Origin: a virus
Direction: 5' to 3' (one strand)
DNA length: 35,543 nucleotides
Virus record (IMG/VR): IMGVR_UViG_3300031669_000121
Span: 1-35,543 of that record
In this document: positions 3,601-34,910 of the stretch, one piece after another
Layout: every line of letters begins with the position of its first letter
How positions within the stretch are numbered: position 1 is the stretch's first letter
Position numbers and translations under genes: made by a program
The notes under the pieces: model-generated
The model's database searches: none
Seen by the model: the letters and a program-made list of their open reading frames with translations, nothing else
Told to the model about the DNA's origin: nothing

Positions 3601-3641
3601 TCCTTGGCATCCTTCTAAATATTAAGCAATAACATTCCTTG

Positions 3642-4967
3642 CTATTGATTTAAATCATTATTACCAATTAGTTGTCGTCCAGCACTATAATATCCTGGAC
3701 TTGCCTTTTGAAGCTGTTTAATAATCCAAGGATTTTGAGCCATTTTCACTAATTGTGGCATCGCATGTTGCCCTAAATATGTGCCCGCCCCAATTCCTCC
3801 CAATGTACCTAAAATCGGATTAATCATATGACCACCAACAGTCGAAGCGGCAATTGGTAATCCATATTGCATTGCTTTTCCCATAGAAACTTTATTTTTT
3901 ATATCATTTAATGTATTAGATAAAAAATGTTCATTAGGTATATTTTTCTTTTCTTTAGAGGATTTAATAGCGTTTATTAATTTATTAGGTTCTATTTCTT
4001 CAACATTTCCTTCAACAATATTTGCTAATTTTGGAGATGACAAATAAGGCATTCTTTCTTGCTTATGAATTCTTGCACCTTCTAAATAAGAATTTTTAGC
4101 ATCTTTATCATGAGATTCTAATGAATTTAGAATATCATTTTTTAATGATTCTCTGCTTTTTTCTAATGCAAACAATCTATCTTGTCCAATAGCATCTAAT
4201 GATTTATTTTTATATAAAGGTATCATTTCAGAAAACATTTGACTTTGTAATTTATGAGCATTCTTTATAGTAGGATTTTCAATGAATTTTTCATGTAAAA
4301 ATTTTACTTTTTGTCCAACATAATCTTTATATTTATCATACATTTTAATATATTTATCTGAATTTAAATTTTCATCACCATATTTTTCCATAACTGGCTG
4401 ATATTGTTTTCTTTCTTTATCAACAACATTTTGATAATTTGATTTTATGTCATTTAATTTTTCATTTGTATATTTCAATGGTTTTATCATTTCTGCTATT
4501 CCAGAAATGGCATGAAGTGGAGATGTAGCCGCCTCCAAAATAGAATTAAATTTTAAATTATTTTCCAATGATTCTGGAAGAGATTCTTTATTATCTTCCC
4601 TACCCATTTGCATAGCTGTACTACTGGCAACGCCGGAACCAATTCTACCCGCAGCATTTGATAAATATGGAATTAATCCTTTTGCTGCTATTAATTCGGG
4701 CTGATAAGCCGATGCCAATCCACCGCCGGCTTCTAATGCAGCTTTACCAAATTTTTCAGGAGTATTTAAACCTTGTTTCATCATACTTAAATCATTAACC
4801 GATTTAGTGGATTTTAAAAAATTACTTACTAAATCAGAATTATTATTAATATCTGGATTATTCTTTGATAAATAATAAATATTTAATTGATTTTCTATTT
4901 CATTATCAGACATACTTTCTGGGAATTTTACAATACTATTGTCTGGTAATCTTATCTTTTTAGGCAT
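3642..4967 (-). CDS. Internal virion / DNA-ejection protein (gp16 position)
   Basis: A 441-residue protein beginning MPKKIRLPDNSIVKFPESMSD, a head seen on many internal virion proteins. Residues about 170-330 are long charged helices. A hydrophobic Gly/Ala-rich segment near residues 365-405 (AASTVGGHMINPILGTLGGIGAGTYLG, shown in pieces) could cross a membrane. It is third in a row of three genes occupying the place of P22 gp7, gp20 and gp16, which are ejected with DNA to form a channel through the cell envelope. The start overlaps the upstream stop by one base (TAATG), indicating translational coupling. The assignment is by position and composition. Confidence 0.6.
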   Translation of the reverse strand: MPKKIRLPDNSIVKFPESMSDNEIENQLNIYYLSKNNPDINNNSDLVSNFLKSTKSVNDLSMMKQGLNTPEKFGKAALEAGGGLASAYQPELIAAKGLIPYLSNAAGRIGSGVASSTAMQMGREDNKESLPESLENNLKFNSILEAATSPLHAISGIAEMIKPLKYTNEKLNDIKSNYQNVVDKERKQYQPVMEKYGDENLNSDKYIKMYDKYKDYVGQKVKFLHEKFIENPTIKNAHKLQSQMFSEMIPLYKNKSLDAIGQDRLFALEKSRESLKNDILNSLESHDKDAKNSYLEGARIHKQERMPYLSSPKLANIVEGNVEEIEPNKLINAIKSSKEKKNIPNEHFLSNTLNDIKNKVSMGKAMQYGLPIAASTVGGHMINPILGTLGGIGAGTYLGQHAMPQLVKMAQNPWIIKQLQKASPGYYSAGRQLIGNNDLNQ

Positions 4968-5878
4968 TATTCTATTCTCCTAGTTTTTTGATTCCAAACT
5001 CTAATTACTTCACCGTTTTTATTATTATTTATTTCTTTTGAAATTGGATTTTGCGGCTGTTCTTCATAAGCTTTACGAGATTTTAATGCTTGCCTATAAG
5101 TTCCGGTTTCATTTTTCAATATATCCATCAATTGATTATATTTTTTAATTGCTGTATTTTTATCTAAAACCCAAGATTCAGGATTTACCAAATCATTCAA
5201 TTGCTTATCCATTTGTGGTGTTATAGATGCACCATAAAATTGCCTAGTTTGTTTTGCTAATAATTGAGCTGCCGTCAATGCTTTTTGATAATTTTGAAAT
5301 CTTTCACTAGGTTTATTTTGGCTAGCATTTCCGTAATCTATAGCTTTTTTTATATGACCACCTATACCACTATAAGAAAATAAATGCTCTGGATTTATAT
5401 ACTTTGTAGTTTTATCAATATTAGTAGCAAATAAATTTCTTTTTCTTGTATCTAAATCCGTAGTTTGTTTTTGCCTGGATAATTGATACGCATTTGAAAT
5501 ATCATCTTCACCGCTTTCAGGGTTATAATTATTTTGATTATCTTGAATATTTTGATTTGCATTAATATTTTTCTCATTATCATTATAAAGCGATTCTTGA
5601 TTTGGTTGATTTGGTTGATTTGCTCCATAATTTTGAAGTATTGATCTGACAATCGGTGCTTCAACAAATGATTTACCAACATTTGTCAGCCCTCTTTCTT
5701 GTAATGCAGGACTTTGATAATATTTTGATAATGCTTGCTTATATTGATTATTTATTCTCGACGTTTGATAATCAGTTAATGCTTTAGCAAGTGCGCTAGA
5801 CCCCGTTGCAAATCCAGTCAATAAAGGGTTAGCTTCTTGAAAACTTATTCTTTGAAAATCAGGGAATTGAATAGGCAT
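4967..5878 (-). CDS. Internal virion / ejection protein (gp20 position)
   Basis: A 303-residue, Gln/Asn-rich protein with a low-complexity stretch near residues 85-125 (repeated QPNQ, NINANQNIQDNQNN) between two helical parts. Composition and position, between the gp7-like and gp16-like genes, suggest an ejected internal head protein. I do not see a catalytic motif. It is co-translated with the next gene through a one-base overlap. Function is inferred only from gene order in P22-type phages. Confidence 0.55.
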   Translation of the reverse strand: MPIQFPDFQRISFQEANPLLTGFATGSSALAKALTDYQTSRINNQYKQALSKYYQSPALQERGLTNVGKSFVEAPIVRSILQNYGANQPNQPNQESLYNDNEKNINANQNIQDNQNNYNPESGEDDISNAYQLSRQKQTTDLDTRKRNLFATNIDKTTKYINPEHLFSYSGIGGHIKKAIDYGNASQNKPSERFQNYQKALTAAQLLAKQTRQFYGASITPQMDKQLNDLVNPESWVLDKNTAIKKYNQLMDILKNETGTYRQALKSRKAYEEQPQNPISKEINNNKNGEVIRVWNQKTRRIE

Positions 5879-5889
5879 AATTTAAACTC

Positions 5890-6531
5890 CTATAAAAATG
5901 CCGAGGCTAAGCTGGTGCCAGCACCAAGAATTGAACCCCATTTGCCACCTTCATGCTGATTTTCAGCATTTTGACCTTCATAAGCTAATTTAGCTTTGTT
6001 GGCTAATATGGAGGCTAAATCTTGACCAAGTCCAACACCGGTTTGAGCGCCAGTATTATAAAGTGATTGCTCACCCTCCAAACCATGACCATATAGACCT
6101 AATGCGCGACTAATCCAGTCACCAAAGTCTTTATTGCCGAGATTGGTCGCTAGTTCCATATTTTGCTGTTCATGCTGTGGTGAGCCTGCCATGCCCCCTG
6201 CTGCCGCGGCATGTCCAGCACCTTGCAATGCTTGCTGTAATGCAAATTTAAAACCAGGTGATTCATGATATCCGGCGCCTATCTTGTTAAGAACGCTGCC
6301 AGGGTCATTAGTAAGATTTCCATATTGACCTTCTGCGATATCACCTGCACGATTTCCACGTTCAATATATGGATTCATGTAATGTTCCAGCACACCTGGC
6401 ATTTCATTCATGTATGGCATTGCCGATTCAGCAGGATTTTCATAGTTATCAAACATATTCCATAACTTATCACCAGCACTTCCCTTGCCGATGGGTAGGC
6501 CAAATCTTTCTATATCATCATAATTAGGCAT
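5890..6531 (-). CDS. Internal virion / DNA transfer protein (gp7 position)
   Basis: A 213-residue Gly/Ala/Met-rich protein. The central 'GAGHAAAAGGMAGSPQHEQQNMELATNLG' region (given here in part) and 'ALGLYGHGL.GEQSLYNTG' are features I associate with a conserved podovirus internal-virion family. The C-terminus (WGSILGAGTSLASAFL) is hydrophobic and could insert into a membrane during ejection. It follows the 104-residue protein and precedes the two other ejection candidates, in P22 order (14/7/20/16). Confidence 0.6.
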   Translation of the reverse strand: MPNYDDIERFGLPIGKGSAGDKLWNMFDNYENPAESAMPYMNEMPGVLEHYMNPYIERGNRAGDIAEGQYGNLTNDPGSVLNKIGAGYHESPGFKFALQQALQGAGHAAAAGGMAGSPQHEQQNMELATNLGNKDFGDWISRALGLYGHGLEGEQSLYNTGAQTGVGLGQDLASILANKAKLAYEGQNAENQHEGGKWGSILGAGTSLASAFL

Positions 6532-6544
6532 TTTCTAATTCCTT

Positions 6545-6859
6545 TTATGTCAATGTAAATGTTTTCCATGTACCGTTTACATTTCCTTTAAACGCATTAT
6601 TTGTTGAGTCATAAAGTACATTTGCAATACTTCCACGCTTTGTTTCACTTGTAAGAGAAGTAGTTAAACTTAATATATTAGTGGCAGTTTGCGCAGGTAC
6701 TTTTATACCTTCGTTTGAAAAATTATTTTGAAGTGCAGCAACTAAATTTTGAAAAAATAAAATCCAGTATTGATTCATATTTCCATCTTTATCAACAAGA
6801 GGTTGATTTCTTGGTAAATCAGGAAAAACTGCTTGTTGTTGTACTGATTGCGTTGTCAT
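6545..6859 (-). CDS. Small neck/tail-associated virion protein (gp26 position)
   Basis: A 104-residue protein with 'FPDLPRNQPLVDKDGNMNQYWILFFQNLVAALQ', a segment I associate with small proteins encoded directly after gp10-like neck genes. It overlaps the gp10-like stop by four bases (ATGA). The position equals that of the P22 tail needle gp26, but it lacks the long coiled coil expected of a needle, so the role is unproven. The C-terminal half (SETKRGSIANVLYDSTNNAFKG) looks like a small beta domain. Confidence 0.5.
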   Translation of the reverse strand: MTTQSVQQQAVFPDLPRNQPLVDKDGNMNQYWILFFQNLVAALQNNFSNEGIKVPAQTATNILSLTTSLTSETKRGSIANVLYDSTNNAFKGNVNGTWKTFTLT

Positions 6860-8556
6860 TGTCTTATATTTAAAACTCCGTTAGTTGCTACAAATCGTCC
6901 TAAACCCCAAAATTTGAATTGACAAACTAAATCATTTGATGCACCAAGCTGCCACCACATCAAGCGATTTTTTCGTAATCCTGGCGCGTTTAAATAATAT
7001 GGAAAATCGCTACTAAATCCCTGGCCGCCATCCATTGATATTGATAAATCAACATGTGGCAAAGATAAGTCAGATGTACCCGTATTAGATTCTTGTTCAA
7101 ATATAAGGTATTCAAATGAATCAACGTCCTGTTGTTCAGAAAGTAATAAATTTTCGTTTTCTGTTTCAAGAAAATCACCTAATTCCGTAACGAGAAATAT
7201 GTCATCGCCTTCGGTTATTACAAATTTATCATCTTCCGTAATAAAGAAGGCATCTCCTAAACTTTGTTGTTGATATGGAATTTCACCTTGTTCAATTGTA
7301 AATCCTGCATCATTAGCTATAAAATATTCTTGCGATGGTAATCTAATATTTTTACATACTCTTATTCTTGGAATTTCTTTACCATCATATGTATTAAATA
7401 TTGTATCAAAAGCATAAATATTTCCGTTATTTTTAGTTACAAAATAATATTGATTATTGAAAAATGCAACTTCATTGGCTATAAAATAGTTAAGATTTTC
7501 ATCACTTGCATGATAAAATTTCTTTGTATTAAAATCATAAAATAATGATAAATTATCCGTGTAGAAATTTATGTGATAAATTAAATGTCCATCTTGCCGA
7601 TATATAAATCCTTGAGAATCTTCTGGATTACTTAATTGTGAAAATAAATAATCAATACCATCTGTTGTTATTTTCTCAGGCATTTGACCTGTTGTGTAAA
7701 CTATAATCGGCCCTGATTTCTCATTTTGAGCAAGCCAAACAACTATTTCATCAGTAGCAGCAACAGTTGCAGGATTAATGCAGCCATAATCAATGTTAAA
7801 AGATGTATTCCTTTGGTATGGAAATAATTGCAAACCTAGATCAAACCAAGATTCCGTTACGGTTTTACCCATTACTAAAATCATATTTCCACGTGACGGA
7901 AATCTTACAATTGCCTGCGTATCATCTGGTTTTGTTTGTATCAATCCTATATGTGCAGAATCATCCGGCCATGACAAACCATTATTAGAATCAGATAAAC
8001 GCCATGTATTGTTTGCGGGAGGCGTATAGAAAGAATCTTCTGATGCAGCACATAAAAAATAAGTATCATGAAAATCTATAAATCCAGGTTTAAAGGTGGT
8101 GCTTATTTGTTGAAATTGTGGCGTTAATGTCTGATCATATAAATATAACGATATACCATCCGAAATCAAAACCTGGGGTTTATTATTTTCAGCAATATAA
8201 ACAGTTCCAGATGTTGTTAATAAATTTCCAATTAATGTTTCACTTGTGTCAAACGTTTGTTGAATATTTTGATCAAAGAAAATATCAACTAAATAAACTC
8301 TGCTATCGATAACTGTAATTAACTTATTTAATTTTGTACTTGTATGGATTGCTCTGCCCTTTTTCCCAGGATTTGCACCCATACCTAAATCATATGCAGA
8401 TACTGCTGTTTGATATCCGGCATATGGAACAATCCAGCCATCACTTATAAACATATTATATGTTTTTTCAGAGTCAATTTTTGGGTAACGACCAAACACG
8501 CTTGAACCAGCGATATTAAGTTCAACTTGTTTAAATCGATTACTTCTGTTTATCAT
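6856..8556 (-). CDS. Packaged-DNA stabilisation / tail hub protein, P22 gp10-like
   Basis: A 566-residue protein starting MINRSNRFKQVELNIAGSSVFGRYPKI and containing KTYNMFISDGW, like P22 gp10, which plugs the portal vertex and joins the tail hub. P22 gp10 is about 470 residues. The extra length is explained by an acidic repeat insert at residues 432-495 (TEDDKF, TEGDDIF, TELGDF, TENENLLL). The C-terminus after the insert (DLSLPHVDLSISMDGG, RKNRLMWWQLGAS) is the usual family end. It is followed with a four-base overlap by the 104-residue gene. Confident for family, inference for the insert. Confidence 0.85.
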   Translation of the reverse strand: MINRSNRFKQVELNIAGSSVFGRYPKIDSEKTYNMFISDGWIVPYAGYQTAVSAYDLGMGANPGKKGRAIHTSTKLNKLITVIDSRVYLVDIFFDQNIQQTFDTSETLIGNLLTTSGTVYIAENNKPQVLISDGISLYLYDQTLTPQFQQISTTFKPGFIDFHDTYFLCAASEDSFYTPPANNTWRLSDSNNGLSWPDDSAHIGLIQTKPDDTQAIVRFPSRGNMILVMGKTVTESWFDLGLQLFPYQRNTSFNIDYGCINPATVAATDEIVVWLAQNEKSGPIIVYTTGQMPEKITTDGIDYLFSQLSNPEDSQGFIYRQDGHLIYHINFYTDNLSLFYDFNTKKFYHASDENLNYFIANEVAFFNNQYYFVTKNNGNIYAFDTIFNTYDGKEIPRIRVCKNIRLPSQEYFIANDAGFTIEQGEIPYQQQSLGDAFFITEDDKFVITEGDDIFLVTELGDFLETENENLLLSEQQDVDSFEYLIFEQESNTGTSDLSLPHVDLSISMDGGQGFSSDFPYYLNAPGLRKNRLMWWQLGASNDLVCQFKFWGLGRFVATNGVLNIRQ

Positions 8557-8587
8557 TTAAATTCCTTACGGAACATAATTTTAAAAA

Positions 8588-9337
8588 TTAACTAGGGCGC
8601 CATCCCTTCCCGATATTTATATCACCGAAATTAATACCCGTACCTTGAGTCAATATGCTTGTTTTTATATTGCTTAAATCAGGTGGTGACATATACATCA
8701 ACTTTCTCATCATCTTATTTAAGATTGCTTCTGATTCGGGGTTAAACTGTATCCCATATTCAGAACACATATATTGAGCAAGACAGTAACGCAAATACTC
8801 AATATATGACGTATCAAAACCTACATTTGAGCCATTTATGAATGTATAGGGCAAAGTAGAAGTAATATTTGTTAAATCAGTATTCAATGAAACATCTGTT
8901 AAAAAAAACTTAGCCATTATTTTTAATGGATAATTACTTTCAGGTAAAAAATATAATGCTAAATTTCCACCGCCTAAACTGCGGTTAAAATTCCAGTTAA
9001 AAGGTAGCGTTTGAATATTATCAATTCGACCTGAGCCATAATATGATCTTCTTGATGTTGAATCCATAGGGTATCTAACTTGATCAATATTGAATGTTAC
9101 CGATTCAATTTCAGCAATACTTGGAAGGAAATAAAATTCCTGTCCAGCATCTGCGGGCAATTCAACATATGTCCAGTATGGTATTAAATCAGTTTCAATT
9201 TGCTTGAAATCTAATAAAGCATTAAGCAACATCAAACCATCATTAATTTGATCACCCGAAACATTTTGCAAATTTCGGGCGACAATTCCTGATAAATACC
9301 ATGATCGAGTTATAAGTGTCTGTGCAGTATATGCCAT
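8588..9337 (-). CDS. Head-completion / tail accessory factor, P22 gp4-like
   Basis: A 249-residue protein beginning MAYTAQTLITRSWYLSGIV with 'DQINDGLMLLNALLDFKQ', typical of the gp4-type adaptor that binds below the portal and closes the packaged head. The ATG at 9337 is preferred over the GTG three codons upstream because GAGGAG lies eight bases before it. It is longer than P22 gp4 (166 residues) through a beta-rich centre and a helical end (YLRYCLAQYMCSEYGIQFNPE). It sits immediately before the gp10-like gene, as in P22. Confidence 0.75.
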   Translation of the reverse strand: MAYTAQTLITRSWYLSGIVARNLQNVSGDQINDGLMLLNALLDFKQIETDLIPYWTYVELPADAGQEFYFLPSIAEIESVTFNIDQVRYPMDSTSRRSYYGSGRIDNIQTLPFNWNFNRSLGGGNLALYFLPESNYPLKIMAKFFLTDVSLNTDLTNITSTLPYTFINGSNVGFDTSYIEYLRYCLAQYMCSEYGIQFNPESEAILNKMMRKLMYMSPPDLSNIKTSILTQGTGINFGDINIGKGWRPS

Positions 9338-9355
9338 GAGACACACTCCTCAATA

Positions 9356-10183
9356 TTAAGTTGCCGTCGCATTATAGCTGTAACCACTAACTAAAACGGT
9401 TACTGCATCACTTGAGCTACTTACTAGATAATCAATTTCTGGCTTACTAGCACCAACACCGCAAACCACTTGTTGGTATTGCTGTTGAGGAATACCAGCA
9501 GCTATACCGACGATTGTTACCAATCCACCAGTTGCAGAGCTACCAGTTGGTCTAAATTGCACGTAATCGCCAATAGCTGCCGGAGTAAATACAACATCTA
9601 AGTAAGCAATAACATTAGTCGTTGTTGTGGTAGGAATGGGCGTTGATAAGTCGATTGCAGTGAATGTGGTTGCATTTCCAGCCGCCAAAACCGACGCTTC
9701 TGGTAAAACATAGAATGCTTTTTCATTTACCGCATTTTTTGGTGTTACAGTGAAATGCGTTGAAGCATCAGTTGCAACAAATCCTAGCAAACGTAGAGAA
9801 TCATAGCCTAACGGTAACAAAGGATATGCATTACTTGTTAAGCTAAGAATGCCAGCAACAGGATGATAACCACGCGAATCACCAATGACCCATACTCCAT
9901 AATTTGAACTTGCTGCTAAAGTACCTGCATCTAAACCATTTGCACCAACAACCGCAGAATTTACAAAAAGTGGTGGTATATAATTTAAATTTAAAGTTGC
10001 TGGTACAACATTTCCTTGTAAATTTGAGTAACCAACTGGCATATCAATTTTATCATTCATATCACGACATTGACCTGGTGCAATTGCAATTACCGTATTT
10101 GAAGCATTTGATATATTCATTCCGCTAATATAAAGATGTGGTAAAGAATAAATTGGGGAGTTTTGAGATGTTACAGTAGCCAT
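9356..10183 (-). CDS. Virion structural protein between coat and neck
   Basis: A 275-residue beta-rich, Ala/Thr/Val-rich protein. The 'C.DMNDKIDMPVG...' head and the central 'GANGLDAGTLAASSNYGVWVIGDS' are phrases I associate with a podovirus structural family that often carries 'GANGLDTG.LA..T.Y'. No P22 counterpart lies at this place. It may be a head-surface fibre or decoration, or a neck component. It starts 78 bases after the coat gene, beyond a strong hairpin that could reduce its expression relative to coat. Confidence 0.55.
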   Translation of the reverse strand: MATVTSQNSPIYSLPHLYISGMNISNASNTVIAIAPGQCRDMNDKIDMPVGYSNLQGNVVPATLNLNYIPPLFVNSAVVGANGLDAGTLAASSNYGVWVIGDSRGYHPVAGILSLTSNAYPLLPLGYDSLRLLGFVATDASTHFTVTPKNAVNEKAFYVLPEASVLAAGNATTFTAIDLSTPIPTTTTTNVIAYLDVVFTPAAIGDYVQFRPTGSSATGGLVTIVGIAAGIPQQQYQQVVCGVGASKPEIDYLVSSSSDAVTVLVSGYSYNATAT

Positions 10184-10221
10184 TTTAATGCCCTCTTAAA
10201 TTAAATCGTTTTATCAGTATT

Positions 10222-10248
10222 AAGAGGCATCTTTTTATAATGCCTCTT
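10222..10248 (-). terminator. Hairpin after the coat gene (possible attenuator)
   Basis: AAGAGGCAT (10222-10230) pairs perfectly with ATGCCTCTT (10240-10248) around a nine-base loop. On the minus strand it follows the coat stop by 13 bases but is followed by AATACTG and not a U-run, so it is a weak terminator or an RNA-stabilising or processing hairpin that sets high coat versus lower neck-protein levels. Confidence 0.5.
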
Positions 10249-10261
10249 TCATTTACTAACT

Positions 10262-11578
10262 TTAGCCTTGTGACAAAGGAACAATTAAACGCATCGCATA
10301 TTCAGGTACAATCGTTGAACCATGCACTTCATCGTAAATCATGCCGGTCTGATTTTGCCCGAACAAAGAACCATAGGTTAAACGCAGGGATGCGTGAGTT
10401 TCTGGGTCATATTCGTTTGCTGTGTCATATGGGGATTGTTCAGGTAATTGAGGAAGTGCAATAAACATTGCATCTCCACCTAATATACCGCCCGCTCTAT
10501 GCGATGGAAGCGCTAACAATTGCATACCAGCAGCAATAGGATTGTTTAAGTTCTGATTTGCACCACCCGCCCAATTTAGTGCTGGACTAATGGTAATTGT
10601 CACATTACCAGAACTATTTGCTCCTGCATTTGCAATTGCTCTAAATTGTACAGGGTTTGCAGATTGCACATGACCGATGAAAGTCAATGAACGCATATTA
10701 GGCTGATTTGCAACACCGTCTCTGAATTGGAATAAATCACCACTGAATACCGCATTACCATCGGAGCTTGTTGCGCCACTTACAGTAATTTGCGTTACAT
10801 TATTACCGGTTGGGTCATTTGTACTAACAACAGTTAATGTTTGATTATTCACGCCAGTGTTACCCGATACATGAATAGGCATTAAGTTAGATTGATAGTA
10901 ATGAACTAAAGGCGTGCCAAAATCACCTACTTCCCAAGACATTGCAATTTCATCGTTACGCTGCGGTACAAATTGATTTAAACCACTGCCAACGATTGCT
11001 GGGATGATGGTATCCGGAAGATAAAATTTCATACCTTCTGCAACTGCGCCATAGTTCTTGAAGAACATAACAGCTTGAGCTAATTGTTGATAGCTTGTAA
11101 TACTCGTAGAACCATCACCAAAGAAACGATATGGTCCTGAGAATGTATTTGTTGAACCATCGATTTGAGATACAACACCCGACACCCAGTTTAATGCAAT
11201 ATTTGATTCAACTAAGTTTGCAAGTTCTGCAATAGCTGATTTACCAAATACTCGCATATAATCTTCTTCACCCTTTTCTAAGTTGAATATACGTTGTTGT
11301 GACGTAACAGCAAAAGAGGTATTATTTGCTTGGTCAGCAACAAGTTGTAATACGCGCTGATTAGCAGCTTGGAAAGATGCAACTAAACCTGCTGTGGTAG
11401 TAAAACGTGGCGGCAAGTCAAACGTAACTGTACTTCCCAAATTTGCCGTCATACGTTCGAAATCTTTGAATTTTGTATTTGCGGTAGAAATGTGTGCGCA
11501 TAAGTTAAGTAATAACCCAAGCGAAGATCGTTGATATGTTTGAACCTGTTGCAAAGTATTATTAGGAAAAACAGCCAT
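10262..11578 (-). CDS. Major coat protein, P22 gp5-like
   Basis: A 438-residue protein (P22 coat: 430) located directly after the scaffold gene. 'SLGLLLNLCAHISTANTKFKDFE' and 'STVTFDLPPRFTTTAGL' near the start resemble P22-type coat proteins with the HK97 fold. The centre (about residues 225-345, Asn/Thr/Gly-rich) fits an inserted surface domain. The C-terminus (THASLRLTYGSLFGQ..GMIYDEVHGSTIVPEYAMRL, in parts) is the usual beta end. It polymerises with the scaffold to form the procapsid. Confidence 0.85.
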   Translation of the reverse strand: MAVFPNNTLQQVQTYQRSSLGLLLNLCAHISTANTKFKDFERMTANLGSTVTFDLPPRFTTTAGLVASFQAANQRVLQLVADQANNTSFAVTSQQRIFNLEKGEEDYMRVFGKSAIAELANLVESNIALNWVSGVVSQIDGSTNTFSGPYRFFGDGSTSITSYQQLAQAVMFFKNYGAVAEGMKFYLPDTIIPAIVGSGLNQFVPQRNDEIAMSWEVGDFGTPLVHYYQSNLMPIHVSGNTGVNNQTLTVVSTNDPTGNNVTQITVSGATSSDGNAVFSGDLFQFRDGVANQPNMRSLTFIGHVQSANPVQFRAIANAGANSSGNVTITISPALNWAGGANQNLNNPIAAGMQLLALPSHRAGGILGGDAMFIALPQLPEQSPYDTANEYDPETHASLRLTYGSLFGQNQTGMIYDEVHGSTIVPEYAMRLIVPLSQG

Positions 11579-11635
11579 CTCAAAAACTCCTTCTTTAATC
11601 CATTAAAGTCGGATGATGGTTGCTTGTCTTATATC

Positions 11636-12391
11636 TTAGACCCTATATTTTGCTCTATAGTCCTTGACCGACAAAACACCATTACCCGTTCCGGTATTTG
11701 AAGGCCGCATTTGACTTAAAGGTTCATTTGGAAATCTTACTTTTGAGGCATCATAATTATCTTTAATTGATTGAGATAATTTTTTAGCCGCAGCAATAGC
11801 GTCATTCGGTGATCTTTCAGCTAAGTATTCTAGCTGAGACATTTTGATTCTATCTTTGCTCAACTCATAGAAAACATCATCTGAGTTTTCAACTACTTCA
11901 CCTAGTAACTGAACAACACTAGGAAACTTAGATAAATCAACATCACCAGTGACGGCGTCAAAATCATCATATTTCTCACGCCCTTTTGAAGTCTTAGCAA
12001 AGAAGTTTTGTACAGTCCTTTTCGCCATTTCATCTTGGTTCTTTTGTAAAGCATCCTGCCTTACAGAATCCATGTGGCGCTTTGCTTCTTCTGCTGCAAT
12101 CTTTCTGTAAGTGTCTTCGTTAAAGTTTTGAGAACCTACAGTGTCATGTTTAACATGTTCACCATATTTCTGTTGTGCATACTCTGGTTGCTCTGTTTGC
12201 ACACGTCTGTATGTTTCCACAGCATCAGATTTGGCACGTTTAACAATATCATTTACTTCTGATTGCCTAAAGCTTCTTTCTTCGGTTGGCGCTGGATTCG
12301 ACACTTGATGTGCCGGTGCAGGCGTTGACGAAGAAGGTTGCGAGTTAGATACTTCTTGATTCTGACTCATTCCATTTTGAATCTCTGTCAT
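11636..12391 (-). CDS. Scaffolding protein
   Basis: A 251-residue, charged, largely helical protein with a disordered Ser/Pro/Gln N-terminus (residues 1-45) and long helices (RQSEVNDIVKRAKSDAVETY, EEAKRHMDSVRQDALQKNQD). The basic C-terminus (VKDYRAKYRV) fits the coat-binding helix-turn-helix of P22-type scaffolds. It lies just upstream of coat. It is the first gene after the structured leader and promoter at 12402-12610, with AGGA six bases before the ATG. P22 scaffold is longer (303). Confidence 0.8.
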   Translation of the reverse strand: MTEIQNGMSQNQEVSNSQPSSSTPAPAHQVSNPAPTEERSFRQSEVNDIVKRAKSDAVETYRRVQTEQPEYAQQKYGEHVKHDTVGSQNFNEDTYRKIAAEEAKRHMDSVRQDALQKNQDEMAKRTVQNFFAKTSKGREKYDDFDAVTGDVDLSKFPSVVQLLGEVVENSDDVFYELSKDRIKMSQLEYLAERSPNDAIAAAKKLSQSIKDNYDASKVRFPNEPLSQMRPSNTGTGNGVLSVKDYRAKYRV

Positions 12392-20398: not shown

Positions 20399-20574
20399 TA
20401 ATCTCTACCTTTTTCAGAATATAGATGAAGTATAAAATATAAACAAGTCACAGAAATTGTTTGTAAAAAAGAATATTCAATATCGTATGTAAAAATATAA
20501 GAAAAAATTGGAAGAAGGTATATACTAAATAATATAAACATTTTATTAATTAAATTAGATTTCATCTCAATCAT
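20398..20574 (-). CDS. Membrane mini-protein
   Basis: Fifty-eight codons from an ATG at 20574 overlapping the previous stop (ATGA), with GAGGA just before. MIEMKSNLINKMFILFSIYL, LPIFSYIFTY and LQTISVTCLYFILHLY give two hydrophobic spans. Not recognised. Confidence 0.6.
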   Translation of the reverse strand: MIEMKSNLINKMFILFSIYLLPIFSYIFTYDIEYSFLQTISVTCLYFILHLYSEKGRD

Positions 20575-20765
20575 TCCTCTTCTATTTGATCTCTTTTATT
20601 GAACTCATTTTCCATCTTCTGCATTATCATATCTACAACCTGAGAGACGCGTTCATTTAATCCATTTATTTTTTCATGTAATTCATTGACTCTTTTATGG
20701 TTAGAATAGAGGTCACTAAATGTTAATAACCATGAAATTAATAAAAGAAAATATACAACAATCAT
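20571..20765 (-). CDS. Single-span membrane protein with coiled coil
   Basis: Sixty-four residues from the ATG at 20765, overlapping the stop of the Tad2-like gene (ATGA). MIVVYFLLLISWLLTFSDLY is a membrane segment with the start of the soluble part; the rest (HKRVNELHEKINGLNERVSQ, VVDMIMQKMENEFNKRDQ) is a coiled coil. Holin-accessory, spanin-like or membrane-anchored defence roles are possible. Not recognised. Confidence 0.6.
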   Translation of the reverse strand: MIVVYFLLLISWLLTFSDLYSNHKRVNELHEKINGLNERVSQVVDMIMQKMENEFNKRDQIEEE

Positions 20766-20947
20766 TCTACTATCTCCCAATCTTTGGATGAGAGAAAATC
20801 TGATAAAGTACAATAGACGGTATTATCTTTTCCAATAAGAATCCATAATTCATCGTATTTTTTTACATATTGGATTGAATAATCACTATTTATTCTTTTT
20901 AGCTTTTTTCCTTTTGATAAAAATGGTAATACTTCAGTAAATTTCAT
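20762..20947 (-). CDS. Tad2/DUF2829-like protein, copy 3
   Basis: Sixty-one residues: MKFTEVLPFLSKGKKLKRIN at the front, LWILIGKDNTVYCTLSDFLS in the middle and KDWEIVE at the end. The front 'F.EVLPFL.KGKK.KR' and the 'DWEIVE' end match the DUF2829 family, now named after Thoeris anti-defence 2 (Tad2), which binds cyclic ADP-ribose-type and other nucleotide signals. Closest to copy 2 (about half identical by eye). The ATG is taken at 20947, overlapping copy 2's stop. Anti-defence function is inferred from the family only. Confidence 0.55.
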   Translation of the reverse strand: MKFTEVLPFLSKGKKLKRINSDYSIQYVKKYDELWILIGKDNTVYCTLSDFLSSKDWEIVE

Positions 20948-21138
20948 TATTCTACTATCTCCCAATCTTCTGATAAGATGAAATCTGAAAATGAGCAAAA
21001 AAGTGGACTGTTATTATCTTTTCCGCCAACAATCCAAATTTCGTAATCTGTATCAACATATTCAAGAGCAAAATCATCTTGCTCTCTTTTTATTTTTTTA
21101 CCCTGCATTAAAAATGGCAATACTTCGATAAATTCCAT
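20947..21138 (-). CDS. Tad2/DUF2829-like protein, copy 2
   Basis: Sixty-three residues: MEFIEVLPFLMQGKKIKREQ, IWIVGGKDNNSPLFCSFSDF and ILSEDWEIVE. Same framework as the neighbours: N-terminal helix 'F.E.LPFL..GKK..R', central strands with IW[IL]xxGKDN, and C-terminal DWEIVE. The ATG (21138) overlaps the stop of copy 1. The GGGAG that serves it lies inside the codons for the DWE of copy 1. Shorter than SPO1 Tad2 (about 90 residues), so the ligand site may be incomplete. Confidence 0.55.
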   Translation of the reverse strand: MEFIEVLPFLMQGKKIKREQDDFALEYVDTDYEIWIVGGKDNNSPLFCSFSDFILSEDWEIVE

Positions 21139-21443
21139 TATTCTACCAACTCCCAATCATCACGCATCAATAAAAGTAAGTTTATCTGTGGCAAATGTCC
21201 ATGCTTACAAGGTTTATCCCAATCTTTTGGAAGTTTATCAAGAGAGCCAATTCCCATGTCGTCATGTTTTCTTTCACTTTTCATCCACACAATGCTCATT
21301 GGCATTTCCCATACATTGATTGGTTCGGATATATCAGGATGTAATGAAACTCTACAAGCCATATAATATTCATCTTCTGGCATTGATGGATGACGAATTT
21401 TTTTACCTTTACGCATAAGTGCTAAAGCTTCTTCAAATATCAT
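21138..21443 (-). CDS. Tad2/DUF2829-like protein, copy 1
   Basis: A 101-residue protein with the fullest family pattern: MIFEEALALMRKGKKIRHPS at the front, a central 'MPMSIVWMKSERK' strand pair, and 'LPQINLLLLMRDDWELVE' at the end, where DUF2829 proteins have 'W..S..DLLA.DWE'. Tad2 proteins of this family sequester immune signalling nucleotides of Thoeris and some CBASS systems. The ATG overlaps the small-terminase stop (TAATG). Function is inferred; ligand residues were not checked. Confidence 0.62.
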   Translation of the reverse strand: MIFEEALALMRKGKKIRHPSMPEDEYYMACRVSLHPDISEPINVWEMPMSIVWMKSERKHDDMGIGSLDKLPKDWDKPCKHGHLPQINLLLLMRDDWELVE

Positions 21444-24973: not shown

Positions 24974-25045
24974 TGGCACGTAGCACAACGGTAGTGCGTC
25001 GGTCTGTTAAGCCGTTGGTTGTTGGTTCGAATCCAGCCGTGCCAG
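24974..25045 (+). tRNA. tRNA-Asn (anticodon GTT)
   Basis: Cloverleaf by eye: acceptor TGGCACG/CGTGCCA, bases 8-9 TA, D stem GCAC/GTGC with loop AACGGTA, anticodon loop CTGTTAA (GTT at 25006-25008), T arm GTTGG-TTCGAAT-CCAGC, discriminator G. The top anticodon pair is U-U. CCA is not encoded. Asn codons are frequent in this AT-rich phage, so it may support late translation. Confidence 0.92.
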
Positions 25046-32383: not shown

Positions 32384-32523
32384 ATAATGACTATATAACA
32401 TCAAAAGAAAGATTGAAATTTTGCAAAGAAACAATAATTTCAAAAATATTTGTATATGGTATCTTATTTATGGCTGTTTATGCAGTTATCAATGAATCAT
32501 TAAATAATTTGGGAGCATTATAA
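32380..32523 (+). CDS. Membrane mini-protein in the recombination operon
   Basis: Forty-seven codons whose start (ATGA) and stop (TAATG) overlap both neighbours. MNNDYITSKERLKFCKETII, SKIFVYGILFMAVYAVINES, LNNLGAL: one membrane segment near residues 22-38. Function unknown. Confidence 0.6.
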   Translation: MNNDYITSKERLKFCKETIISKIFVYGILFMAVYAVINESLNNLGAL

Positions 32524-33197
32524 TGTCTAATACATCATTAATAATCGGTGAATCTGGTACAGGGAAAAGTACGTCTATTTCAAATTTAAATCCTTTGGAA
32601 ACATTTATAATAAATGTTCTTGATAAACCTTTGCCGTTCAGAGGATATAGGAAAAATTATATTGCGATAAAAGATTGGAATGACATAATAGGAAACTATT
32701 ACGCATCAGATGAATTTTCTAAAATTATTAATTGCATAAAAATGGTTAATCAAAAAAGACCTGAAATAAAAAACTTAGTTATAGATGACTGGCAATATAC
32801 CATGTGTAATGAATTTATGAGACGAGCGACAGAAAACGGGTTCACTAAATTCACTGAAATAGGACAACATGCCTGGTCAATAATTAAAGCTTTGACAGAT
32901 TGTAGAGAAGATTTATATTGTTTTGTGTTATCTCATAGCGATACCGATACAAATGGAAAATATAAATGCAAATCAATTGGTAAGATGTTAGATGAAAAAA
33001 TAACAATTGAAGGGATGTTTACTACTGTATTGCATACTCAAATAATGGATGGAGCATATAGATTTTTAACTCAAAATGATGGTTCACATATTGCAAAATC
33101 ACCGCAAGGAATGTTTGAAGATAAATATATTGAAAATGATCTTGCATTTGTAAAATCAAAAATGAATGATTATTACTATGAAGATGTGGCAATATAA
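32523..33197 (+). CDS. Sak4-type RecA-fold ATPase (single-strand annealing / recombination)
   Basis: A 224-residue AAA/RecA-core ATPase: Walker A GESGTGKST (residues 9-17), Walker B LVIDDWQ (85-91), and 'YCFVLSHSDTDTNGKYKCKS' where Sak4 proteins carry the sensor. Overall plan matches phage Sak4 (Rad51-like core), which works with SSB to pair DNA. The SSB-like gene follows directly, supporting this assignment. Probably feeds recombination-dependent concatemer formation; RusA resolves the junctions. Confidence 0.8.
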   Translation: MSNTSLIIGESGTGKSTSISNLNPLETFIINVLDKPLPFRGYRKNYIAIKDWNDIIGNYYASDEFSKIINCIKMVNQKRPEIKNLVIDDWQYTMCNEFMRRATENGFTKFTEIGQHAWSIIKALTDCREDLYCFVLSHSDTDTNGKYKCKSIGKMLDEKITIEGMFTTVLHTQIMDGAYRFLTQNDGSHIAKSPQGMFEDKYIENDLAFVKSKMNDYYYEDVAI

Positions 33198-33218: not shown

Positions 33219-33737
33219 ATGAGTTATTTTGATTATGAACCTATGACAGAAGAACAATGCGAAAAAGCTAGATATCAATTATTACCAGACGGATTTTATA
33301 AAGGTAAAATAGAAGATGCTATTAGTAGGCAATCTTCAAAAGGTAATCCTATGGCTGAATTAACTGAAATTTTTTATGATGATAATGGAAACTCGAAAAA
33401 GATTAAAGATTTCTTACCGTTTACTAAAGGAATGATGTGGAAATGTAAACATTATTGTGATTCAGTTAACTTAACAACTGAATATCTTAACAAACAATTT
33501 TCTCCAGAAATTTCAAAAGATAGAGTAGTATATGCTTTGATTGGCATTGAAAAAGGTAAAGAAATTCCTTTTGATAAATTAAACGGAAAACCATTCGGTT
33601 CTTTATATCCAGATAAAAATATTATAAAAGATTATGTAACATCAGAATTTTATGAGTCTAATAAAGGAAATATTAAATTATCACAATTAAATCCAATTGC
33701 AATCAATAATGAATCGGAGGAAGATATACCTTTTTAA
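33219..33737 (+). CDS. SSB-like single-strand DNA-binding protein
   Basis: A 172-residue protein from ATG 33219 (AGGAG seven bases upstream). 'LLPDGFYKGKIEDAISRQSS', 'NPMAELTEIFYDDNG' and 'IKDFLPFTKGMMWKCKHYCD' fit the OB-fold single-strand binding proteins of the DUF669-like group, and the tail ends in acidic EEDIPF, the SSB-type peptide that recruits partner enzymes. Paired with Sak4 upstream. Confidence 0.75.
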   Translation: MSYFDYEPMTEEQCEKARYQLLPDGFYKGKIEDAISRQSSKGNPMAELTEIFYDDNGNSKKIKDFLPFTKGMMWKCKHYCDSVNLTTEYLNKQFSPEISKDRVVYALIGIEKGKEIPFDKLNGKPFGSLYPDKNIIKDYVTSEFYESNKGNIKLSQLNPIAINNESEEDIPF

Positions 33738-33770: not shown

Positions 33771-34020
33771 CTGCATAACAGAATGGAATACCTACTCTAT
33801 AAAAATTGCCAATCAGTTTATGGATGCGGAAGCTCAAAAAGACAGAAAATGCTAGGCCAGCTATGCAGGATGGTGGCACTAAGAAGAAACACCCTGCATC
33901 AGATCGAAGAGCCTCTAATTGTGCAGAAATGCGAGGCCTATGCTTACGGGTTATAAGGCTTGCAAGCAGCGTAGGCTAACTAGAGAGGTTGCTGATGAAA
34001 TCTCAGCACGCATCCAAAGT
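33771..34020 (+). ncRNA. Second structured noncoding RNA, upstream of a tRNA-like element
   Basis: A gene-free stretch with raised G+C and a consistent set of non-conflicting helices. Closing helix TGGATGCG/CGCATCCA (33821-33828/34009-34016). Hairpin A ATGCAG/CTGCAT plus GGTG/CACC (33863-33868/33894-33899; 33872-33875/33890-33893). Hairpin B GCCTC/GAGGC plus GCA-GAAA-TGC (33911-33915/33933-33937; 33923-33932). Helix C CTATGC/GCGTAG (33938-33943/33969-33974, one G-U) around GCTTGCAAGC. Hairpin D TGCTGA/TCAGCA (33990-33995/34003-34008), which abuts the closing helix. Small ORFs across this stretch are interrupted and unlike the neighbours. Family unknown. Confidence 0.65.
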
Positions 34021-34026
34021 TTAAAT

Positions 34027-34116
34027 GGCAATCGCGGCGTAATGGTAAGACGCATGGGTAAATGCACTGGATACTTTGGAAACCTCCGTGTGCCAGTTCG
34101 ATTCTGGGCGATTGTC
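34027..34116 (+). other. tRNA-like element (non-canonical anticodon region)
   Basis: Acceptor-like GGCAATCGC/GCGATTGTC (34027-34035/34108-34116, one G-U). D-arm-like GCGT-AATGGTAAG-ACGC (34037-34053). T arm CCAG-TTCGATT-CTGG (34093-34107) abutting the acceptor strand. The roughly 39 bases between D and T arms do not form a normal seven-base anticodon loop on a five-pair stem; instead GCAT/ATGC (34052-34055/34062-34065) and CAC.GGA/TCCGTG (34066-34071/34085-34090) pair. So it is tRNA-like, degenerate or functionally different. Length (about 88) is that of a long-variable-arm tRNA. Confidence 0.5.
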
Positions 34117-34138
34117 TCTTTATAGGATTCCAAATGAC

Positions 34139-34294
34139 ATGAAAGATATGGTTGACCCAACTTACGATAAAAATGAAATAGCAGCTAATCCAATTTGGGA
34201 TTTAGCATTTAAATTATATGAACAACATAATGATAATTCCCCCATTGGTTGGGGTGATTACATACCGGAAGCTAATAAGATTATATCAGAATAG
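34139..34294 (+). CDS. Small protein between tRNA-like pieces
   Basis: Fifty-one residues from ATG 34139 (AGGA upstream): MKDMVDPTYDKNEIAANPIW, DLAFKLYEQHNDNSPIGWGD, YIPEANKIISE. Coding-like composition and a plausible small phage protein. It lies between the tRNA-like element and a separate T-arm-like hairpin. Function unknown. Confidence 0.55.
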   Translation: MKDMVDPTYDKNEIAANPIWDLAFKLYEQHNDNSPIGWGDYIPEANKIISE

Positions 34295-34304
34295 CGAACT
34301 ACAA

Positions 34305-34330
34305 GCCGGTGCAATTCCGGCCGATTGCCA
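34305..34330 (+). other. Second T-arm and acceptor-3'-like sequence
   Basis: GCCGG-TGCAATT-CCGGC (34305-34321) followed by CGATTGCC and A. CGATTGCC (34322-34329) is the perfect complement of GGCAATCG at 34027-34034, a better match than the proximal strand. It could be a second 3' end for the tRNA-like element, or a leftover from tRNA recombination. Confidence 0.45.
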
Positions 34331-34368
34331 AAAGTTTATGTGTTTATTTTAAACAAAAGGAGTTTTAA

Positions 34369-34743
34369 ATGTTAGAAGAAATGAAAGTAAAAGAATTAAT
34401 GGATTTAATAAAAATATTAAATATTAATTCAAATAATTCATCATATAAAAAAGAAGATGGTAGATATGTAATTGTCAGGACATACTCAGCAGGTGTTTTT
34501 GCTGGTGAAATAGAATCACGAAATGGTCGTGAAGTAGTATTAAAAAATGCTAGAAGATTGTGGAAATGGTCAGGAGCTATGTGTTTGTCTGATTTAGCGA
34601 TGGATGGAGTAAAAGACCCTGATAATTGTCAATTTCCCTGCGAAGTTGATAGAGTTGAATTATTAGAAGCGATTGAAATTTTAGATGTCACCGAAAAATC
34701 TAAAAAATCTATTAAAGGTGTGAAAATATGGCAAGTGAAATAA
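34369..34743 (+). CDS. DUF6948-like phage protein
   Basis: A 124-residue protein with AAGGAG upstream. 'RYVIVRTYSAGVFAGEIESRNG', 'VVLKNARRLWKWSGAMCLSD' and 'LAMDGVKDPDNCQFP' are the signature of a phage family I know as DUF6948 (YVIVRTYSAGV..G.......V.L.NAR.LW.WSGA..L..LA..G), of unknown function. It overlaps the glycine-rich repeat gene by 16 bases. Confidence 0.7.
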   Translation: MLEEMKVKELMDLIKILNINSNNSSYKKEDGRYVIVRTYSAGVFAGEIESRNGREVVLKNARRLWKWSGAMCLSDLAMDGVKDPDNCQFPCEVDRVELLEAIEILDVTEKSKKSIKGVKIWQVK

Positions 34744-34910
34744 ATATTTTATTTTGCGATGGCTGTGGCTATGTCTATGGCGATGGCAGTGGCGATGGCG
34801 ATGGCGATGGCAGTGGCAGTGGCAGTGGCAGTGGCTGTGGCAATGGCGATGGCTATGGCTATGGCGATGGCAATGGCTATGGCTATGGCTATGGCGATGG
34901 CGATGGCTAG
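34728..34910 (+). CDS. Gly-rich hexamer-repeat peptide (GxG[DYSN])
   Basis: Sixty codons: MASEINILFCDGCGYVYGDG then GSGDGDG-type dipeptides to the end. The DNA from about 34758 to 34908 is a run of GGC[GAT/AGT/TAT/AAT/TGT] hexamer halves. All variation is confined to the codons between GGC/Gly codons and the frame stays open, so a Gly-X protein is plausible. It directly follows and overlaps the DUF6948-like gene; similar Gly-rich peptides follow this gene elsewhere, as far as I recall. Confidence 0.5.
   Translation: MASEINILFCDGCGYVYGDGSGDGDGDGSGSGSGSGCGNGDGYGYGDGNGYGYGYGDGDG
34758..34909 (+). repeat. GGC-NNT hexanucleotide repeat tract
   Basis: About 25 tandem units of GGCGAT, GGCAGT, GGCTAT, GGCAAT or GGCTGT. 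GC-rich in AT-rich surroundings and prone to slippage by units of six, which would leave the frame intact. Confidence 0.85.

Follow-up and report, generated by a model that had tools for sequence, protein, structure and literature searches.

The locus behind the SSB-like gene

The window, by which we mean the whole stretch of DNA analysed, is an IMG/VR virus record of 35,543 bases that encodes a Sak4-like gene, a portal protein and a terminase. Two RNA elements, here called A and B, are located downstream of an SSB-like gene and are followed by a short open reading frame (ORF), the orphan half of a further element and a DUF6948 gene, as listed below.

32523-33197, plus strand: Sak4-like ssDNA annealing protein (phrog_2872, E 9.9e-76)
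33219-33737, plus strand: SSB-like gene, 172 aa, upstream of element A
33816-33822, plus strand: spacer GTTTATG ahead of element A
33822-34016, plus strand: element A, tRNA-like (class A), with a discriminator-like A as its last base (34016)
33822-33828, plus strand: acceptor-like helix of element A, 5' strand, pairing with 34009-34015
33832-33912, plus strand: arm 1 of element A, GCUC 33832-33835 with GAGC 33909-33912
33913-33985, plus strand: arm 2 of element A, CUCUA 33913-33917 with UAGAG 33981-33985
33991-34007, plus strand: T-like arm of element A, stem GCUGA/UCAGC, loop UGAAAUC
34009-34015, plus strand: acceptor-like helix of element A, 3' strand, pairing with 33822-33828
at 34019, plus strand: spacer GTTTAAATG ahead of element B
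34027-34117, plus strand: element B, an R1 member with canonical D loop (GG) and T loop (TTCGATT)
34037-34053, plus strand: D-like arm of element B, GCGT 34037-34040 with ACGC 34050-34053, loop AATGGTAAG
34092-34108, plus strand: T arm of element B, CCAG/CTGG, loop TTCGATT, outer G-G mismatch
34139-34294, plus strand: short ORF of 51 aa, between element B and the orphan R1 half
34305-34330, plus strand: orphan R1 3' half, T arm GCCGG-TGCAATT-CCGGC, acceptor strand CGATTGCC, A
at 34334, plus strand: spacer GTTTATG behind the orphan half
34369-34743, plus strand: DUF6948 gene (PF22253, E 6.7e-33)

The SSB-like protein had no match in PHROG or Pfam and ends in the acidic sequence EEDIPF, which we take to resemble the C-termini of SSB proteins; the 51-aa ORF was likewise without a match in these databases. 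Within the segment that holds elements A and B, the only ORFs are short (67-69 aa), overlap one another and start with TTG, and its GC content is raised (0.487 in A and 0.516 in B vs 0.322 in the window). A preliminary description of positions 33771-34020 had noted the raised GC content and called the segment gene-free, which is borne out since the ORFs are short and the relatives of both RNAs conserve base pairs rather than a frame. A promoter scan yielded 10 promoter-like sites vs 6.1 expected, a terminator scan found none on the plus strand, and the sole Rfam match at gathering score in the whole window was a tRNA at 24974. About 160 bases at 34751-34910 consist of hexamer-like repeats (GGC-GAT/TAT/AGT/AAT) in frame with a 60-aa ORF of D-G/Y-G/S-G repeats, and three adjacent minus-strand ORFs of 69-101 aa at 20571-21443 resemble tandem copies of a small protein (EVLPF...GKK...DWEIVE).

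Two tRNA-like RNA families that lack an anticodon arm

Elements A and B represent two families of tRNA-like RNAs that have no anticodon arm, class A and R1, and we consider it very probable that the families and their folds are real. The borders of element A were set by homology. An RNA is present in the span 33771-34020, as proposed, but starts at 33822, and positions 33771-33821 lie outside the element. The closing helix described earlier (33821-33828 with 34009-34016, UGGAUGCG/CGCAUCCA) was found, as were hairpins behind the SSB-like gene, among them one with a GAAA loop (GCA-GAAA-UGC, 33923-33932) and a last one beside the closing helix (33991-34007, one base away). The minimum-energy hairpin at about 33831-33862 is not conserved; the relatives keep the GCUC/GAGC pairing of arm 1, which encloses an A-rich loop, AAAAAGAC, and an inserted hairpin. 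Arm 2 closes a branched middle domain.

The folding of the span as first delimited is weaker evidence than had been claimed: its energy is ordinary (z -1.10, with 26 of 200 shuffles equally good), also when flanks are included (z -1.09, 11 of 100 shuffles). At its homology borders element A gave z -2.10 (5 of 200 shuffles) and its relatives, introduced below, -2.46 (L150; 3 shuffles), -2.89 (L163; 2 shuffles) and -3.10 (L157; 2 shuffles), such that all four members of class A fold better than shuffles. The conserved fold has an energy of -59.6 vs a minimum of -62.5 in the window, i.e. 2.9 kcal/mol above it, and lies 3.0 kcal/mol above the minimum in L150, while in L163 the minimum-energy structure is the proposed class A cloverleaf. 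With the original span inside the range of shuffles, energy was rejected as proof of element A; a folding test of that span would fail and is overruled by covariation. It is the conserved pairs that are decisive for holding the element to be real.

Three relatives of element A were identified in uncultured phages (L150:12219-12380, L163:7476-7595 and L157:464-604; loci are denoted by L and a number). The relative in L150 was first detected by blast of a window segment as two colinear pieces (E 0.08 and 0.28) and is complete, with the GTTTATG spacer and the exact 16-mer GGAAGCTCAAAAAGAC as in the window. The one in L163 was spotted within an array, and the one in L157 came from a scan for an acceptor, a stem with an A-rich loop, a second stem and a T arm, in which stem letters were left unspecified. 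The scan returned 37 rows, and those with a GCTC stem plus a flanking spacer or CC were exactly the four loci. A looser listing of motifs gave noise, L150 excepted, and was discarded.

The acceptor, arm 1 with GCUC/GAGC, arm 2 directly after it and the T-like arm are common to all four members, in which 83 of 84 pairs form and two-sided changes are found at 12 of 21 positions. Compared with the window, the L150 relative, found by sequence alone, keeps 20 of the 21 pairs with nine two-sided changes, and in its acceptor-like helix 6 of 7 pairs, of which four have changed on both sides. Less weight is given to the acceptors of L163 and L157, which were partly used in finding these loci. Every pair of arm 2 is kept, with two-sided changes at all five positions in a three-sequence count, and the third and fifth pairs of the T-like arm change on both sides among the members; arm 1 shows no covariation since its helix letters are identical in all four. 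We infer function from the kept pairs, which support the earlier suggestion of a functional RNA as opposed to a decayed gene. No elbow contact between D loop and T loop was seen in class A, and the R1 model does not match element A. Class A is known from these four members only, and its pattern is present in 3 of 50 records that were chosen for holding R1.

R1 was first recognised from short matches to window positions 34300-34332 in several phages, at loci selected by similarity to the Sak4 and SSB-like proteins. Compact elements at these loci consist of an acceptor strand, a D-like hairpin with loop GACAGTGA, a variable part, a T arm (GGTGCAATTCC) and the second acceptor strand. In general, an R1 element has an acceptor of 7-8 bp and a D-like arm whose loop reads GACAGUGA; the anticodon arm is replaced by a variable domain of 39-145 nt, and the loop of the T arm is UGCAAUU. 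An exact pattern of the two loop regions only, which does not impose pairing, matched 53 stretches (gap 36-96) and 38 stretches (gap 98-158) in viral contigs. Applied to 84,980 species genomes with the gap of 36-96 only, this one pattern gave three matches (L138-L140), which were rejected as chance, with 3-6 of 8 acceptor positions mismatched. There were 86 distinct matches, and 83 representatives once near-duplicates were removed.

The eight acceptor positions, taken at fixed offsets, are paired in 70-80 of the 83 representatives, each position showing between three and six kinds of pair, whereas shuffles gave means of 35-61 and maxima of 48-68. Pairing was also seen at the outer T-stem positions (77-80 of 83) and in the D stem (72-83 of 83). 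For the tests below, 72 representatives with at most one acceptor mismatch were kept; the 11 left out are L138-L140 and eight sequences with at least two mismatches at the fixed offset, some of them from a shifted acceptor (L094, L105, L112, L147, L152, L153, L154 and L156). In an alignment of the 29 members with short interiors, 97.7% of the cells pair and two-sided changes occur at 14 of 18 positions; none of 500 shuffles reached any of five measures, and pairing fell to 31-40% when the partner was slid by 1-3 columns. The covariation among relatives that the preliminary description had suggested looking for is seen in both families. Its proposed check for a conserved frame also came out on the side of RNA: the lengths of the 72 elements are spread over the three classes modulo 3 (26/24/22), and any frame is open in at most 15 of them. 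The discriminator is an A in 42 of the 72, and CCA is encoded in 11 and not in the other 61, nor in elements A and B.

R1 also shows the tertiary contact of the tRNA elbow. The G of GACAG and the C of UGCAAUU, which we take to occupy the sites of G19 and C56 in tRNA numbering, form G-C in the pattern set, A-U in L014 (with GACAAUGA together with UGUAAUU) and L182, and G.U in L227 and L228. A search with A19 and either C or U at position 56 gave 36 stretches, where a paired acceptor and T stem were found only in L182, which carries U56 and scores 49.8 bits with the R1 model; a search with G19 and U56 gave 10 stretches, two of which are real (L227 and L228). No A.C was observed among members with a paired acceptor. 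Since A-U and G.U occur and A.C is unseen, the elbow contact covaries. A 24.7-bit match to the R1 model with A19 and C56 (L213) was counted as chance, having no visible D stem; its acceptor pairs at 6 of 7 positions at best, and it could be counted against the elbow pair.

The tRNA-like element that had been suggested behind the structured RNA is element B, which the R1 model, built without the window, finds with 20.9 bits and E 6.7e-4. Its acceptor (34027-34034 with 34109-34116) has 8 pairs, one of them G-U, and its interior resembles that of L104 (38 nt at 87%), the only match in an exact pattern search with this interior. Elements A and B, first thought to be independent, stand next to each other, are of the same general type and share tRNA-like ends and a spacer. 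Class A and R1 are separated by 10 nt in the window, by some 10 nt in both L157 and L163 and by about 530 nt in L150.

The R1 model also matches positions 34253-34330 (28.1 bits, E 6.5e-6), where the orphan half is identical to L089 in 29 of 29 letters. It has no 5' partner nearby, unless this is element B's own GGCAATCG. The first 14 bases of element B are those of a standard R1 element, and the orphan T loop belongs to another loop type than the D loop of B; a recombination between tandem copies fits these observations, as does an origin as part of a long nested element. The orphan half sits behind the 51-aa ORF and is perhaps the scar of such an event. A possible nested element was noted at L062:6065-6385, directly behind an SSB-like gene, where a tRNA-like stretch with a TTCGATT T loop seemingly lies within a longer helix (GATAG...CTATC).

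The interiors of the 72 R1 elements are 39 to 145 nt long (median 82) and have no sequence or arm in common. They vary between phages yet recur as subfamilies with conserved letters. As nested folds they give a weak signal compared with their flanks (mean z -0.50 vs -0.30, p 0.10), and this idea was rejected. In 17 of the 72 interiors no more than 5 of 100 shuffles attained the score for crossing helices, with about four such interiors expected, as compared to 8 of 72 for a nested control. The pair L088/L103 has two crossing helices, both with two-sided changes, and 14 such changes in its conserved stems vs a control mean of 3.6 (0 of 200); crossing helices are partly supported in L099/L127 and L113/L122, while L088/L120b has no two-sided change in any conserved stem. 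Given the crossing-helix counts and the covariation in L088/L103, pseudoknots are likely in some subfamilies. As a universal feature of R1 they are not supported, with a signal in the said 17 interiors only.

Distribution, copy number and arrays

The R1 model matched 9 of 82 loci fetched by protein (E below 0.01); among the Sak4 loci it matched 7 of 80. No match to the model was found in L004, L005, L006 and L062, whose Sak4 proteins are 82-84% identical to that of the window, nor, at E below 1, in loci fetched via the downstream DUF6948 gene. Missing at the loci of near relatives and present in so few Sak4 loci, the R1 elements are accessory. In the 50 whole records of 33 to 225 kb taken from R1-holding loci, the number of copies ranges from one to four, with two or more in 12 records. 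A tRNA scan of 60 loci identified at least one tRNA in 13, and in 6 of the 60 (L099, L120, L124, L126, L132 and L136) an R1 element has a tRNA no more than 10 nt away.

In other phages, too, the GTTTATG spacer motif comes after the CCA of tRNAs and of tRNA-like RNAs. Arrays of CCA-ended RNAs in series with such spacers were found in L099, L107, L114, L127, L163, L173, L002 and L014; some of them include real tRNAs, and the CCA-GTTTATG junction is common to the array tRNAs. Acceptor-like helices with such flanks, listed R1 elements excluded, have about eight times the density within 900 nt of R1 that they have elsewhere (19 in 141 kb vs 63 in 3.7 Mb), in counts where rows repeat single places and the 19 include one unlisted R1 copy.

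Other candidate RNAs were seen in these surroundings. A further class, here called class C, starts with GGCCGACGATAC, ends with GGGAAAATAGGCC-ACCA, has a short acceptor and a GTTTATG-like spacer and occurs in several arrays (L127:3141-3243 and from 4758, L111:8398-8465, L107:189-252, L002:3593-3674, the minus strand of L143 from 7173, L145/L170 and L124); it had no Rfam match at gathering score in the tested loci. Another pair of similar CCA-ended sequences in arrays is located at L014:7803-7915 (GGGGCAAAATATCG...) and on the minus strand of L099 at 2033-2145. Single CCA-ended helices of other sequence between GTTTATG-like spacers, possibly more RNA classes, are found at L107:259-350, L114 (minus, 1032-1148), L136 (minus, 5561-5643) and L002:3684-3750. 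The 49.6-kb phage record of L153 has 30 tRNA genes in 8 kb (3578-11732), and among them are several sequences with T arms of the GGTGCAATTCC type.

Relation to known RNAs and possible roles

R1 and class A appear to be RNA classes so far undescribed, and we group them with RNAs having tRNA-like ends since their top half folds as in tRNA. The Rfam scan that had been recommended gave no match at gathering score in Rfam 15 for the elements. When E values up to 10 were admitted, three leads appeared, each scoring below its cut-off: tRNA-Sec on B (34027-34116, 21.8 bits, E 0.093, cut-off 47), a tRNA in L157 (13.6 bits) and a cis-regulatory RNA in L163 (16.8 bits). Blast searches against annotated phages gave matches of 23-39 bases (E 0.6-5) or nothing, and were taken as chance. 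No description of R1 or class A was found in the open-access literature that was searched.

We propose that A and B would be transcribed together as a single RNA behind the SSB-like gene. The units would be cut out via the route of tRNA maturation, by RNase P at the 5' end and a 3' nuclease near the GUUUAU spacer, with CCA either encoded or added by a host enzyme. Judging from the sequences, such a maturation is probable, considering the frequency of the discriminator A, the CCA encoded in 11 elements, the tRNAs within 10 nt and the common CCA-GTTTATG junction. The cleavage by RNase P of pseudoknot substrates in dependence on a 3' RCCA motif is the subject of a published study (PMC12710915). 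The top half (acceptor, D-like arm, T arm and elbow) may serve as a chassis for processing and stability, and the interior that replaces the anticodon arm would be the working part, different from phage to phage. The mature RNAs would be stable, CCA-ended and outside translation, the anticodon arm being gone.

The most plausible task of the interior would be to bind or occupy a host factor, e.g. a defence nuclease or an RNA-binding protein. The recurrent subfamilies, the covariation in L088/L103, the multiple copies in 12 of 50 records and the patchy presence point in this direction, and absence from the same place in close relatives is as expected for accessory anti-host functions; that the interior binds or decoys such a factor is nevertheless tentative. 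The explanation as a whole, i.e. tRNA-like families, maturation by the tRNA route and a host-factor payload, we rate as slightly short of an even prospect. Against it count that 61 of the 72 elements do not encode CCA, that the interiors fold barely better than their flanks, that the pseudoknot signal reaches only 17 of 72 and that class A has only four members.

The best surviving alternative, although unlikely, is that the tRNA-like units act only as sites at which the early transcript is processed and the SSB-like mRNA receives its 3' end, with the interior as filler. An element lies directly behind an SSB-like gene in the window, L012, L016, L021 and L026, the spacer is shared with tRNAs, and the weak folding of the interiors would also be accounted for. 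Interior subfamilies with conserved letters and covarying helices (L088/L103) are not expected of a filler, nor is the branched middle domain that class A retains with every pair of arm 2, and arrays of several different units in series are more than a cut site needs.

It is quite improbable that the elements are divergent or decaying tRNAs that are, or once were, used in translation. The resemblance to tRNA (RF00005) is extensive and comprises the acceptor of 7-8 bp, the D-like arm, the 5-bp T arm with its 7-nt loop and the covariation of acceptor and T-arm stems in R1 and A, as well as, in R1, the 19-56 elbow contact, the common discriminator A, CCA encoded in some members and the tandem arrangement with tRNAs; element B even has canonical D and T loops. 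However, R1 has no anticodon arm with a 7-nt loop and instead carries interiors without common sequence, and the non-canonical loop pair GACAGUGA/UGCAAUU runs throughout the family. Strong covariation argues against decay, and ARAGORN and Rfam RF00005 called only real tRNAs, and none of the elements, in the window and 16 element-holding loci. The best Rfam lead for B, tRNA-Sec (RF01852), shares the 8+5 bp stack of acceptor and T arm with many R1 members, but R1 and B lack the anticodon arm and the long variable arm and have a D stem of another shape.

A role as tmRNA-like molecules that tag or rescue ribosomes is very improbable. Both have tRNA-like ends, a half-tRNA with a large insert at the site of the missing anticodon arm and, in part, pseudoknots. 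In tmRNA the third acceptor pair is G-U (G3-U70, the alanine identity), whereas in R1 this pair is G-T in 1 of 83; moreover, R1 elements are only 91-200 nt long and have no conserved tag frame, interiors of 39 nt give little room for a tag, and no tmRNA was found by ARAGORN (window and 60 loci) or by Rfam. Least probable of all is a DNA element, such as an integration site, origin or packaging signal, that resembles a tRNA by chance: phage integrases often use tRNA genes, but two-sided changes with G-U pairs and the D-loop/T-loop contact are traits of RNA, 12 of the 50 records have several copies, and the exact pattern had no paired match in the species genomes, where integrated copies would be expected.

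There are precedents for parts of the proposed chassis and payload. In the TMER transcripts of gammaherpesviruses, a viral tRNA-like module is the processing chassis for another RNA; these differ from R1 and A in belonging to a eukaryotic virus, in their fold and in having the payload behind the tRNA instead of inside it. The type III antitoxin ToxI has no tRNA-like ends and consists of identical repeats in tandem. GOLLD and ROOL are reported near tRNA genes, are much longer than R1 and A and lack tRNA-like ends; neither had an Rfam match at gathering score here. They are described as structured phage RNAs (PMC12286853), and the phage mimic pseudo-ToxI is reported to be an RNA that neutralises a host defence toxin (PMC3475682). 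ToxI and pseudo-ToxI offer a phage RNA precedent with pseudoknot units, without a claim of homology to R1 or A; an H-type pseudoknot unit as in type III antitoxins may be present in some R1 interiors, 17 of 72 of which score at 5% or better, with clear covariation in one subfamily.

The two covariation-supported families are an addition to the RNAs in Rfam 15 and in the annotated phage records searched. They break with the assumption that phage genes resembling tRNAs have a role in translation, and their chassis and payload layout would make the role of phage non-coding RNAs directly testable. In a bolder reading, which we consider rather doubtful, uncultured phages carry modular RNA arsenals in which unrelated classes (R1, A, C and others) are arranged in arrays under one tRNA-style processing code of tRNA-like ends, CCA and GUUUAU spacer, with fast-changing structured payloads that neutralise host defence factors. 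If true, this would be categorically new, an RNA counterpart of the clusters of anti-defence proteins. Gaps beside phage tRNA genes may hide RNA genes that are invisible to tRNA finders.
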